From contig NZ_CP015163.1 of assembly GCF_003312875.1 (NCBI RefSeq), positions 62,001 to 126,000 on the forward strand: a DNA stretch of 64,000 nt, read 5' to 3'. The position numbers were made by a program, and so were the translations under genes. This stretch comes from Amycolatopsis albispora (GTDB lineage: Bacteria; Actinomycetota; Actinomycetes; Mycobacteriales; Pseudonocardiaceae). The notes under the pieces are model-generated. The model saw only the letters and a program-made list of their open reading frames with translations, made no database searches and was not told the DNA's origin. Positions 61,168 to 64,000 of the stretch are shown here, piece by piece (position 1 is the first letter of the stretch; each line of letters starts with the position of its first letter).

Positions 61168-62877
61168 TCACGCGGTGAAGCGCGCCGCCTCGGTGTCGAT
61201 GAGGTGCTGGGCGCGCTCCAGGGTGTGCGAGCTGTAGGTGCCGCCGGCCCGTGCGTCGAGCAGGGCGTTCTGCATCGCGTCGATGAGCAGGCGCTGCAAC
61301 TCCCGGCGTTGCTGGAGCGGGCTGTCCGGGTCGTCGCGCTCGGTGAGCAGCTTGTCGATCATCTCGGCGGTGGCGACGGTCCGCCGGCGGGACTTGCCGA
61401 GGATCGCCTCGTCGAACGGCTTGCCGTTCTCCCGGCGCAGCGCCGGGTTCTCGACCAGCGCCTGCGCGGCGGTGTGGATCTCGGTGGCCAGCCGGGCGAG
61501 CTCACGGCGTTCGTGCTCGGCGTCGGTGCCCTGGATCCCGAGCAGCTTGATCAGCGCGGGCAGCGTGCCGCCCTGCACGACCAGGGTGACGATCGCGACG
61601 GTGAACGCGATCAGCACCAGTTCGGCCCGGTGCGGCACGTCGGTGGGCAGCGACTGCGCGGCGGCGACGGTGACCACGCCGCGCATCCCGGACCACGCGA
61701 GCACCCCGCCACCGCGCCACCCGAGCCCTTCGCTGGCGAAGTAGGCGGCGTCGGCGTGGCGTCGCCGGAGGACGCGGGTCACCGCGCTGTACCGCTTCCG
61801 CGTGCCCGGCCGCGGACCGCGCGCGGTCAGCCCGTCCAGCGCCGCCTCGATCCGGTCGGTGCGTTCACCCGCGCCGCGCTGCTGCCGGCGCAGGGCCGCG
61901 ATGAGCGGGACGACAAAGACCGCGCGCAGCACGATCAGCGTGAGCGTGGCCAGCAGCCCGATGCCGACGGCGCTCCACACGCCTTCCCCGGAGTTGCGCA
62001 CGTCCGCGACCACGGCGGTGATCTCGAAGCCCATGAGCAGGAAAACGCCGTTCTCCAGCAGCAGCTGGATGGTCCGCCAGTTGGTGCGCTCGGAGATCCG
62101 GTCGTGCGCGGTGAACCGCTTCGCGCTCTGGTGCCCGGTGATCAACCCGGCCGCCACCACCGCGATCACCCCGGACGCGTGGGCTTCCTCGGCCGGGATG
62201 AACGCCAGGAACGGGACCACGAAGGAAATCGCGGTGGTGAGCACCGGCTGGTTCCGGATCCGCGAACGCGCCCACACCGACACCACGCCGATGACCGCGC
62301 CGACCGCGATGCCGACGACCACCGCGTAGGCGAAGTCGCCGAGCGCCCCCCAGAACGAGACCGTGCCCGCGATCGCGGCGACGGCGGTGCGCAGCAGCAC
62401 CAGCGCGGTCGCGTCGTTGACCAGCCCCTCGCCTTCGAGAATGGTGACGAGCCGCGGCGGCAGGCCGAGGCGCTTGCCGATCGAGGTGGCCGCGACCGCG
62501 TCCGGCGGGCTGATCACCGCGCCGAGCGCGACCGCGGTGGCGAAGCCGAGCTCGGGGATCAGCCACCAGATCAGCAGCCCGGTGCCGAACGCGGACACCA
62601 CCACCAGCACCACCGACAGCGCGCCGATCGGGCGCAGGTCGCGGCGGAAGTCCACCACCGGCATGTTCACCGCGGCCGCGTAGAGGATCGGTGGCAGCAC
62701 CACCACCAGGATCAGGTCCGGTTCGACGAACAGCTCCGGCGCGCCCGGCAGCCTGCTGCACGCCATGCCGACCAGCACCAGCAGCACTGGCGCGGCGACC
62801 TTCAGCTTCGGTGCCGCGTACGACACCACCACGATGAGCAGCACCGCCACCACCGCGAGCAACGCCAGTTCCCGCAT
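61168..62877 (-). CDS. Na+/H+ antiporter of the CPA1 (NhaP/NHE) family
   Basis: 569 residues. About twelve helices: VVLPPILYAAAVNMPVVDFRRDLRPIGALSV, the ion-site motif VALGAVISPPDAVAATS and GEGLVNDATALVLLRTAVAA with the conserved Asp residues are typical CPA1 features. The C-terminal 150 residues are a cytosolic helical tail (ELARLATEIHTAAQALVENPALRRENGKPFDE...), longer than in minimal NhaP proteins. It extrudes sodium in exchange for protons. ATG at 62877, with a frame that runs further upstream without conserved content. Confidence 0.92.
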   Translation of the reverse strand: MRELALLAVVAVLLIVVVSYAAPKLKVAAPVLLVLVGMACSRLPGAPELFVEPDLILVVVLPPILYAAAVNMPVVDFRRDLRPIGALSVVLVVVSAFGTGLLIWWLIPELGFATAVALGAVISPPDAVAATSIGKRLGLPPRLVTILEGEGLVNDATALVLLRTAVAAIAGTVSFWGALGDFAYAVVVGIAVGAVIGVVSVWARSRIRNQPVLTTAISFVVPFLAFIPAEEAHASGVIAVVAAGLITGHQSAKRFTAHDRISERTNWRTIQLLLENGVFLLMGFEITAVVADVRNSGEGVWSAVGIGLLATLTLIVLRAVFVVPLIAALRRQQRGAGERTDRIEAALDGLTARGPRPGTRKRYSAVTRVLRRRHADAAYFASEGLGWRGGGVLAWSGMRGVVTVAAAQSLPTDVPHRAELVLIAFTVAIVTLVVQGGTLPALIKLLGIQGTDAEHERRELARLATEIHTAAQALVENPALRRENGKPFDEAILGKSRRRTVATAEMIDKLLTERDDPDSPLQQRRELQRLLIDAMQNALLDARAGGTYSSHTLERAQHLIDTEAARFTA

Positions 62878-63017
62878 GTCCGGCTCGCTTTCCACGTCCC
62901 GACCTGACGCCGGGGAGTTTGCCGGACGACGGCGGGAACGGGCCGCGTTTACTCGATGGTGGGACAGTCGCGCCGGTGCTAGCCTGCGGTGCCCGAGCCG
63001 GAAGGGAGGCGGTACCC

Positions 63018-63071
63018 GTGGACCTGAACCTCGTCCTGCGTTTCCGCGCTCCCAGGGGGTTCGCCGCCTGA
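63018..63071 (+). CDS. 17-residue leader peptide with Arg-X-Arg stall motif
   Basis: A complete short frame: GTG start with GGGAGG 8 bases upstream, TGA at 63069-63071, product MDLNLVLRFRAPRGFAA. Residues R8-F9-R10 form a +X+ motif like the R-L-R at codons 7-9 of the ErmDL leader, where macrolide-bound ribosomes stall. The codons for R8-F9-R10 are themselves stem segment 1 (63039-63047) of overlapping stem-loops ahead of the MFS gene. A leader-peptide role is inferred from these matching features; the peptide alone is too short for homology. Confidence 0.6.
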   Translation: MDLNLVLRFRAPRGFAA

Positions 63072-63097
63072 GCGGAAACGACGCTTCGTTTCCGAAG
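63039..63097 (+). promoter_or_regulatory. Alternative stem-loops between leader peptide and MFS gene
   Basis: Segment 1 CGTTTCCGC (63039-63047) pairs perfectly with segment 2 GCGGAAACG (63072-63080). Segment 2 shifted by one (63073-63081) pairs perfectly with segment 3 TCGTTTCCG (63086-63094). Segment 3 also starts CTTCG (63084-63088), which pairs with CGAAG (63093-63097), the start of the MFS ribosome site. Thus 1:2 plus 3:4 hides the site and 2:3 exposes it, the logic of erm-type translational attenuation. Confidence 0.6.
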
Positions 63098-63108
63098 GTG
63101 GATACTTC

Positions 63109-64000
63109 TTGCACGCCCCTGCGCTGGATCGCTCGTTCTGGAAGTTGTTCGCCGCGTCGGCCACGGCCACCTGTGCCGACGGCGTGGTGAAGGTTTCGCT
63201 GCCCCTGCTCGCCGCTTCGCTGACCACCAGCCCAGTGCTCATCTCCGGGCTGACCGCGTTCGCCTTCCTGCCGTGGCTGCTGTTCGGCCTGCCCGGCGGG
63301 GCGCTGGCCGACCGGGTGGACCGGCGCCGGGCGATGTCCGTGGTCAACGTCGTCCGGGCGGTGCTGCTCGGCGGGCTGGTGGTGCTGATCGCCACCGGCA
63401 CGGGCGGTGTCGCGGTGCTGTACGCGGCCGCGTTCGCGCTCGGGATCTGCCAGGTGGTCTACGACTCGGCGGACCGCGCCATCCTGCCGCAGGTGGTCGG
63501 CCGCCGCGGGCTGGAGAAGGCCAACAGCTGGCTGACCGTCGAGGAGACCGTCGGCAAGGACTTCGTCGGCCCGCCGCTGGGCGCGGCGTTGTTCGGCTGG
63601 TTCCGCGCCGCCCCGTTCCTCGGCCCGGCGATCGGGTTCGCCGTCGCCGCGGTGCTCGTGCTCGCCGTTCCCGGGCGCTTCCGCGCCGACCGCACCGAAC
63701 CGGCCACGCTGCGCGCTGACATCCGGGAGGGGGTGAGCTGGCTGTGGCGGCACCCGGTGCTGCGGAGCCTGACCATCTACAGTGGACTGATCGCGGCGCT
63801 GATGTCGATGGGCACCTCGCTGACCGTGCTCTACGCCCTGGACACGCTGGCGCTCAGCCCTTCGCTGTACGGCCTGTTGTTCGCGGCCATGGGCGTCGGC
63901 GGGCTGGCCGGGTCCGCGCTGGTGGGCCCGCTGACCGCCCGTCTTGGCAGGCCCCGGGCGAGCACGCTGGCCGTGGCGATCGCGCCGGTGATGTCGGTGC
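63109..64000 (+). CDS. MFS exporter (EntS/Mef-like), 5' part
   Basis: The first 297 residues; the gene runs off the right edge. TTG start with GAAGGTGG 8-10 bases before it. Helices 1-8 of an MFS exporter are visible: FWKLFAASATATCADGVVKVSLPLLAA, then GLPGGALADRVDRRRAM (the loop 2-3 motif) and ILPQVVGRRGLEKANSWLTVEETVGKDFVGPPLG, a stretch typical of the MFS_3 group that includes EntS and macrolide exporters. The leader and stem-loops upstream suggest antibiotic-inducible expression. Substrate unproven. Confidence 0.85.
   Translation, partial: MHAPALDRSFWKLFAASATATCADGVVKVSLPLLAASLTTSPVLISGLTAFAFLPWLLFGLPGGALADRVDRRRAMSVVNVVRAVLLGGLVVLIATGTGGVAVLYAAAFALGICQVVYDSADRAILPQVVGRRGLEKANSWLTVEETVGKDFVGPPLGAALFGWFRAAPFLGPAIGFAVAAVLVLAVPGRFRADRTEPATLRADIREGVSWLWRHPVLRSLTIYSGLIAALMSMGTSLTVLYALDTLALSPSLYGLLFAAMGVGGLAGSALVGPLTARLGRPRASTLAVAIAPVMSV

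Follow-up and report, generated by a model that had tools for sequence, protein, structure and literature searches.

How might a reading frame of 17 codons, placed directly in front of the gene for an MFS exporter, govern the production of that exporter in Amycolatopsis albispora? The frame lies in the last part of the window, i.e., the whole stretch of 64,000 nucleotides that was analyzed, which stems from a genome consisting of a single contig of 9.1 Mb. The leader is flanked on one side by a Na+/H+ exchanger gene (Pfam PF00999) on the minus strand and on the other side by the exporter gene. Its codons for R8-F9-R10 are readable as a drug-stalling motif or as one arm of an RNA pairing, and the expected response is opposite in the two cases. 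According to the calculations presented below, the leader and competing hairpins in its RNA probably let a stopped ribosome decide on exporter translation. The elements concerned are the following:

63004–63009, plus strand: leader ribosome site GGGAGG, 8 bases 5' of the GTG
63018–63071, plus strand: predicted leader frame of 17 codons (GTG at 63018, TGA at 63069–63071), encoding MDLNLVLRFRAPRGFAA
63039–63047, plus strand: segment 1, CGTTTCCGC, exactly codons R8-F9-R10; 5' arm of hairpin A
63053–63059, plus strand: inner arm of hairpin A, the G-rich codons 12–14, pairing with 63064–63070
63064–63069, plus strand: segment 0, CCGCCT, at the end of the leader frame; complement of the exporter ribosome site, held by hairpin A or B
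63072–63081, plus strand: segment 2, directly 3' of the stop codon, pairing with segment 1 (hairpin A) or segment 3 (hairpin B)
63086–63094, plus strand: segment 3, partner of segment 2 in hairpin B
63095–63101, plus strand: segment 4, exporter ribosome site AAGGTGG, of which 63096–63101 pairs with segment 0
63109–64000, plus strand: MFS exporter of 405 amino acids with a TTG start, running past the window

The ribosome site, the 17-codon frame, the three stem segments and a stem of five pairs covering the exporter ribosome site (63084–63088 with 63093–63097), all described in the original prediction, are present in A. albispora. A motif of the type R/K-X-R/K is in itself unremarkable, as it is found in 132 of the 429 ATG/GTG frames of 10–25 codons in the window. 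It is conservation rather than this motif that lifts the site above chance. The cassette was found at eight further loci: in two genomes of the same genus (G092 and G004), in A. taiwanensis, Actinophytocola, Glycomyces and genome G123, and on two Streptomyces plasmids (S1591 and S984). The carriers include several soil actinobacteria. The nine loci do not represent independent events, since one genus contributes three of them and the two plasmid stretches share 98.7% identity. The leader peptides are:

A. albispora: MDLNLVLRFRAPRGFAA
G092: MDLRPVLRFRASRGPIAA
G004: MDLRSVLRFRAPRGLFAA
A. taiwanensis: MNICHVTRFRAIRRMTAA
Actinophytocola: MDLVDVMRFRTSRRPTAA
Glycomyces: MDMTLALRFRTIRRTTLI
G123: MSSHTVPRFRLSGRTITA
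Streptomyces plasmid S1591: MNLRPVTRFRAIRRMSAA
Streptomyces plasmid S984: MNLRPVTRFRAIRRTSAA

R8-F9-R10 is invariant in all nine leaders, and an Arg is found at position 13 in eight of them; each leader has three or four Arg codons at positions 8–14. Codons 2–5 vary freely. The frame, its ribosome site, where GGAGGCGG is unchanged, and the start are retained at all nine loci, and differences in leader length amount to whole codons. The R8 codon is CGT, which is used 42 times among the 953 Arg codons of 30 ORFs in the window and is required at this position for the pairing with segment 2. AGG, with 59 of these 953 Arg codons, is found at codons 13–14 at seven loci. Codons 1–2 of the leader (63018–63023) can pair with codons 6–7 (63034–63037), possibly as a start-codon hairpin; this pairing is GGAC:GTCC in A. 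albispora, G092 and G004, and GTGA:TCAC in A. taiwanensis and on the plasmids.

Two hairpins can be drawn in the leader RNA. Hairpin A consists of 63039–63047 paired with 63072–63080 (9/9 pairs in A. albispora) around a short stem between codons 12–14 and CCGCCU. Hairpin B consists of CCGCCU (63064–63069) paired with AGGUGG (63096–63101), a helix absent from the list in the original prediction, around 63073–63081 paired with 63086–63094 (again 9/9 pairs in A. albispora). As both need CCGCCU and segment 2, the hairpins are mutually exclusive. An exact 9-mer with its reverse complement 18–35 bases downstream starts at 61 of 63,940 positions in the window; if a third copy is also required immediately afterwards, this leader is the only such site in the 64 kb. 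The leader RNA of 120 bases as a whole folds modestly better than shuffled sequences (z −1.59; 13/200 at least as good). When folded in isolation, hairpins A and B of A. albispora reach −22.0 and −21.1 kcal/mol, respectively. At the six loci for which isolated hairpins were folded, A ranges from −21.1 to −23.6 kcal/mol (z −1.59 to −5.52) and B from −15.8 to −21.1 kcal/mol (z −2.81 to −4.30), with A. albispora, G092 and Actinophytocola sharing one hairpin B sequence. Thus, the two hairpins are predicted to be two states of similar stability.

Alignment of the relatives bore out the expectation that the competing stems would be conserved. Over all nine loci, pairing 1:2 is kept in 81/81 pair cells, the inner stem of hairpin A in 52/54, pairing 2:3 in 74/81 and CCGCCU:AGGUGG in 49/53, where the 2:3 and 0:4 cells of Glycomyces were counted although they are unsafe because its 3' part is misplaced in the alignments. 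The five-base covering stem, already regarded as the weak point when it was proposed, is the least conserved helix (36/45). The enclosing helix of hairpin B is fully paired or has a compensated form at six loci, is rearranged in Glycomyces and contains a C.A mismatch on the two plasmids. When Glycomyces is folded alone, a hairpin over the exporter site is kept with other pairs (AUCUGAG:CUCAGGU).

Mean pairwise identity, calculated over seven loci (without G123 and S984), is 0.97 in segment 1, 0.85 from the leader ribosome site to the start codon and 0.81 from the stop codon to the exporter ribosome site. It is 0.57 in leader codons 2–7, 0.64 from codon 11 to the last codon, 0.41 in the upstream DNA and 0.40 in the gap that precedes the conserved coding region; third codon positions of the exporter are 0.56–0.77 identical to those of A. 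albispora. Conservation is thus concentrated in the pairing arms and ribosome sites.

Covariation support for the hairpins is thin. In 1:2, one pair is compensated (U-A to C-G) in Glycomyces and G123, and in G123 this change leaves 1:2 at full strength while 2:3 drops to a G.U pair. CCGCCU:AGGUGG has two pairs with both partners altered; A. taiwanensis provides the first and Glycomyces, whose alignment here is uncertain, the second. In shuffle controls, hairpin A was equaled by 16/500 for the percentage paired, 16/500 for covariation and 228/500 for the count of pairs with both partners altered; the corresponding figures for hairpin B are 5/500, 14/500 and 14/500. As kin sequences can pass such controls without structure, these results are support rather than proof.

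How could a ribosome on the leader choose between these states? Ribosome positions were modeled as a footprint that extends 14 bases upstream and 15 bases downstream of the first P-site base; it reaches segment 1 once the ribosome is at codon 3 and CCGCCU once it is at codon 12. The values below give the openness of the exporter ribosome site for, in this order, free RNA, 1:2 forced, 30S, 30S with 1:2 forced, a ribosome at F9 and a ribosome at the stop codon; they are equilibrium values without kinetics and depend on RNA length and footprint.

A. albispora: 0.02; 0.48; 0.09; 0.22; 0.07; 0.45
G092: 0.01; 0.13; 0.01; 0.07; 0.03; 0.12
G004: 0.02; 0.43; 0.04; 0.35; 0.02; 0.39
A. taiwanensis: 0.14; 0.36; 0.21; 0.59; 0.12; 0.48
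Actinophytocola: 0.12; 0.36; 0.14; 0.13; 0.36; 0.11
Glycomyces: 0.14; 0.16; 0.21; 0.23; 0.07; 0.20
G123: 0.01; 0.59; 0.53; 0.53; 0.79; 0.45
S1591: 0.37; 0.47; 0.41; 0.42; 0.83; 0.44
S984: 0.59; 0.49; 0.38; 0.42; 0.51; 0.43

Compared with free RNA, forcing 1:2 increases the openness of the exporter site at eight of the nine loci. With a ribosome at F9, the site is mostly closed at six loci (0.02–0.36), whereas it is open at two (G123 and S1591) and half open in S984; at R10, openness is 0.01–0.10 at the same six loci. The site stays closed in these positions because CCGCCU, 6 bases past the footprint, is left to pair with the exporter site in a helix enclosing 2:3. When the footprint is moved along the leader, opening begins at codon 12 or 13 at six loci, a pattern from which G123 and the two plasmids depart. 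These values imply that 2:3 goes with a hidden site at six loci.

That the leader is part of a ribosome-responsive attenuator, of whichever polarity, is considered very likely. The more specific proposal of a two-state RNA switch, in which a translational attenuator of the MFS exporter senses ribosomes, is given about an even chance. Hairpin B, with 2:3 inside CCGCCU:AGGUGG, would bury the exporter ribosome site, whereas hairpin A, with 1:2 and codons 12–14 on CCGCCU, would take CCGCCU from the exporter site and so free it. Readout would then occur in three zones, provided that the leader is translated. If the ribosome is arrested at the start codon, or if the leader carries no ribosome, hairpin A, which is transcribed first, could form and the exporter would be on. 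A ribosome on approximately codons 3–11 would bar hairpin A, since segment 1 is identical to the R-F-R codons, and leave hairpin B, so that the exporter would be off. At codon 13 or later, the ribosome would cover CCGCCU, and the exporter site would open as well. The assignment of hairpin A to the on state and of hairpin B to the off state is tentative and falls somewhat short of an even chance. Both hallmarks of a translational attenuator, i.e., a hidden downstream site and a competing pairing, were found here by computation and conservation. No intrinsic terminator or terminator-like site with a U run, as in transcription attenuators of the mef(E) or whiB7/wblC type, was found in 62800–63300, and control of translation rather than transcription is therefore suggested. 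The switch thus seems to act on translation through two hairpins of similar stability that share one anti-ribosome-site segment.

Some of the calculations do not favor this proposal. Equilibrium folding of a longer RNA disfavors 1:2 by 6.0–11.1 kcal/mol at five of the nine loci (A. albispora, 6.0; G092, 11.1; G004, 9.1; A. taiwanensis, 8.0; G123, 6.6) and by 0–1.9 kcal/mol at four (Actinophytocola, 0.0; Glycomyces, 0.0; S1591, 1.9; S984, 0.1). With a 30S subunit on the leader start, the cost of forcing 1:2 is 0.1–2.3 kcal/mol at eight loci and 6.5 kcal/mol in G092. However, openness with 30S and 1:2 forced is just 0.07–0.59, with no gain from forcing in Actinophytocola and G123. On the plasmids, hairpin B is weak, and the free site is already 0.37 and 0.59 open. 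Moreover, for G123 and S1591, and in part for S984, the R-F-R footprint leads to an open site, in line with the original prediction.

If, as is supposed, ribosome-targeting drugs are the input, the leader might be a reverse-wired R-X-R leader that sorts drug classes by the position at which the ribosome stops, which is regarded as rather unlikely. Drugs of the lincosamide, streptogramin A or pleuromutilin type, which arrest ribosomes on the start codon, would then lead to hairpin A and switch the exporter on, stalling at R-F-R (macrolide or ketolide type) would lead to hairpin B and lock the exporter off, and late stalls would reopen the exporter site.

The main rival is the stall at R-F-R put forward in the original prediction: a ribosome bound by a macrolide or ketolide would halt once F9 occupies the P site and block segment 1, leaving segments 2 and 3 to pair and the exporter site uncovered. 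Its sequence premises hold, as R-F-R is found in nine of nine leaders and the stems compete. Known R-X-R leaders with such logic exist (R-L-R in ErmDL, MTASMRLR in Mef(E)L and R-Y-R in tlrB), and Arg13 is kept in G092 and G004 though the codon change breaks an RNA pair. The predicted outcome, i.e., exposure of the site by 2:3, was not supported, as 2:3 is the core of the hairpin predicted to bury the site. The opening of the site by the F9 footprint in G123, S1591 and, by half, S984 fits a stall of this kind, but at the six other loci the site is mostly closed both at F9 and at R10, the 3:4 stem it invokes is the least conserved, and the pairing of segment 1 also explains the conservation of R-F-R. 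This explanation is considered unlikely, though the known +X+ leaders make it plausible.

Translational coupling or late stalling would require only that a ribosome at codon 13 or at the stop codon opens hairpin B; exporter synthesis would then depend on complete translation of the leader or on a slowdown of ribosomes at its end. The start of opening at codon 12 or 13 at six of the nine loci, the openness of 0.11–0.48 with a ribosome at the stop codon and the AGG codons at positions 13–14 at seven loci are in line with this possibility. However, it leaves the perfectly kept 1:2 pairing without a role, and opening at the stop codon is weak in G092 (0.12) and Actinophytocola (0.11). Coupling or late stalling is judged distinctly improbable. 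An arginine sensor, in which scarcity of charged Arg-tRNA would park the ribosome at R8 or R10 and close the exporter site, is very improbable: the clustered Arg codons of all nine leaders and the computed polarity at R8–R10 at six of the nine loci would suit it, but the nearest models of the exporter are drug and siderophore exporters, and pairing explains the Arg codons in segment 1. A conserved RNA structure that responds to some other input (a bound protein, temperature or an RNase), with an incidental leader frame, is barely credible, since, although conservation is mostly in pairing arms and the peptide is free to vary at codons 2–5, the frame, ribosome site and start are kept throughout and lengths differ by whole codons.

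The proposed two-state attenuator belongs to an already known type, of which the present leader would be a variant. The R/K-X-R/K motif of +X+ macrolide attenuators is present, as R-F-R, in nine of nine leaders. In ErmDL, which precedes a methyltransferase gene, drug-dependent stalling at the +X+ motif has been shown, with X in the P site, and R-L-R is reported to be dispensable with erythromycin (PMC8298421); for the present leader, which shares the motif, drug stalling is hypothetical. Mef(E)L, MTASMRLR, is the leader of mef(E)/mel, lies before an MFS gene on mobile elements and acts via a Rho-independent terminator with a U run (PMC4335068). An R-X-R leader before an MFS gene and mobile elements are shared features, whereas a terminator was not found here and the leader and RNA are unrelated in sequence to those described. 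In tlrB (yxjB) of B. subtilis, a methyltransferase gene, an R-Y-R leader is combined with a hairpin in which the ribosome site of the gene is concealed, and the stalled ribosome sits in the hairpin because R-Y-R forms the last leader residues (PMC6851288). The present locus likewise has an R-aromatic-R leader and a site-hiding hairpin, but R-F-R is followed by 7 further codons before the stop and lies upstream of the helix that covers the site, and the gene does not encode a methyltransferase.

In actinobacteria, upstream frames of are5sc/tiaA switch the gene on when leader translation is blocked at the start codon, and a tiaA transcription reporter was constitutive (PMC12421871); blocked leader translation likewise switches on whiB7/wblC, according to a review (PMC11550727). 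Switching on by a blocked leader in actinobacterial hosts would be shared with the mechanism proposed here. In contrast, these systems are described as terminator/anti-terminator switches of other genes without R-F-R. The arrest peptides ApcA, ApdA and ApdP, encoded in actinobacterial upstream frames before localization genes, carry R-A-P-P or R-A-P-G (PMC10951233). R-A-P occurs in the leaders of A. albispora and G004. A reading as RAP(P/G) arrest peptides was rejected, as R-A-P-P or R-A-P-G is present in none of the nine leaders: R-A-P-R is found in two, and the others have R-A-S-R, R-A-I-R, R-T-S-R, R-T-I-R or R-L-S-G. In the open-licence literature, no description of this leader was recognized, which is weak evidence of novelty. 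A search of 4227 Rfam models against 62800–63300 gave no match up to E 1, the scan for consensus promoters around the leader gave none, and neither did a search for anti-phage families.

The exporter was assigned to the MFS in the original prediction, and this held at the superfamily level: the part inside the window passes the Pfam gathering scores of MFS_1 (79.1 of 33.4 bits) and MFS_3 (69.1 of 27 bits). A closer assignment did not follow, as the best NCBIfam model for the whole protein, TIGR00900, scores 192.7 bits, below its cut-off of 319.6. The whole protein also scored below the cut-offs of EntS (86.2 bits; cut-off 324), Tet(V) (58.6; 640), Mef(B) (44.8; 800), Tap (43.4; 625) and Mef(A) (41; 675). 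Judged from these scores, the exporter is a relative of drug and siderophore exporters. Among the best 120 of 717 homologous proteins, the closest named ones are from Amycolatopsis, and 70–87% identity, with some proteins part-length, is found for P0002–P0060, followed by a drop to 59%. Homologs among the matches listed are also found in Micromonospora ureilytica, Actinokineospora cianjurensis, Dactylosporangium cerinum and Glycomyces paridis.

If the proposed mechanism is correct, a self-contained leader switch would be moving together with its MFS exporter from one actinobacterial family to another as well as onto plasmids. In a scan of 80 genomes of the genus, the leader block matched strongly in A. 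albispora, G092 (E 1.2e-32) and G004 (E 6.6e-30), the next best match being 24 bases long (E 8.2e-4). At E 1e-4, the block was found in six of 390 genomes of the family (A. albispora, G092, G004, G148, G201 and G123). When named genomes were screened with the exporter alignment, matches were obtained in A. taiwanensis DSM 45107, Actinophytocola xinjiangensis and Glycomyces lechevalierae, along with one distant match of 27%. A. taiwanensis and Actinophytocola xinjiangensis do not differ from G201 and G148, respectively, in upstream DNA or match values, and each pair was counted once.

At all nine loci, the leader and stems are 5' of the same exporter clade or its remnant. Five of the 390 family genomes, including A. 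albispora, have an exporter of at least 77% identity, and all five have the leader; in G214, with the next exporter of the family at 50% identity, a leader match is absent. Such leaders are not general to related MFS genes, a possibility that was rejected since 33 loci with homologs of approximately 30–44% identity and one with a homolog of 50% (L088) lack a leader matching R1, a model built from seven of the nine loci; the best R1 match among them is on the minus strand of L024 (12.9 bits, E 0.68). At E ≤0.01, R1 was found in three of 394 genomes of the class sample, one being A. albispora, and in the other two (29.1 and 28.6 bits) the stretch examined contains no exporter match. In the phylum sample (1/396, E 1e-100) and the order sample (1/287, 1e-120), which overlap with each other and with the class sample, the exporter was found in A. 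albispora itself. One pattern had no matches in viral contigs, and the exporter had none in phage records at 1e-30. Among plasmid records, leader DNA is found in two, and the exporter at 60–80% identity in the same two of 109 matching records.

Several further observations concern these loci. The leader's own ribosome-site region (63007–63012) reads AGGCGG and is a perfect partner of CCGCCT at 63064–63069, and the two ribosome sites may therefore compete for one anti-site segment. Upstream of the leader, TTTACTCGATGGTGGG (62948–62963) is near-identical in G092 and G004, whereas the surrounding DNA is not; it may be a promoter or operator element. In G123 (L077, minus strand, leader at approximately 1502–1607), only short exporter-like stretches are found 3' of the leader, and the exporter looks like a degraded remnant. 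On both plasmid records (L078 and L079), a gene for an 'AIR synthase-related protein' is located 3' of the exporter, and L078 contains integrase and Tn3-family transposase genes near the exporter, within a stretch of 9 kb.
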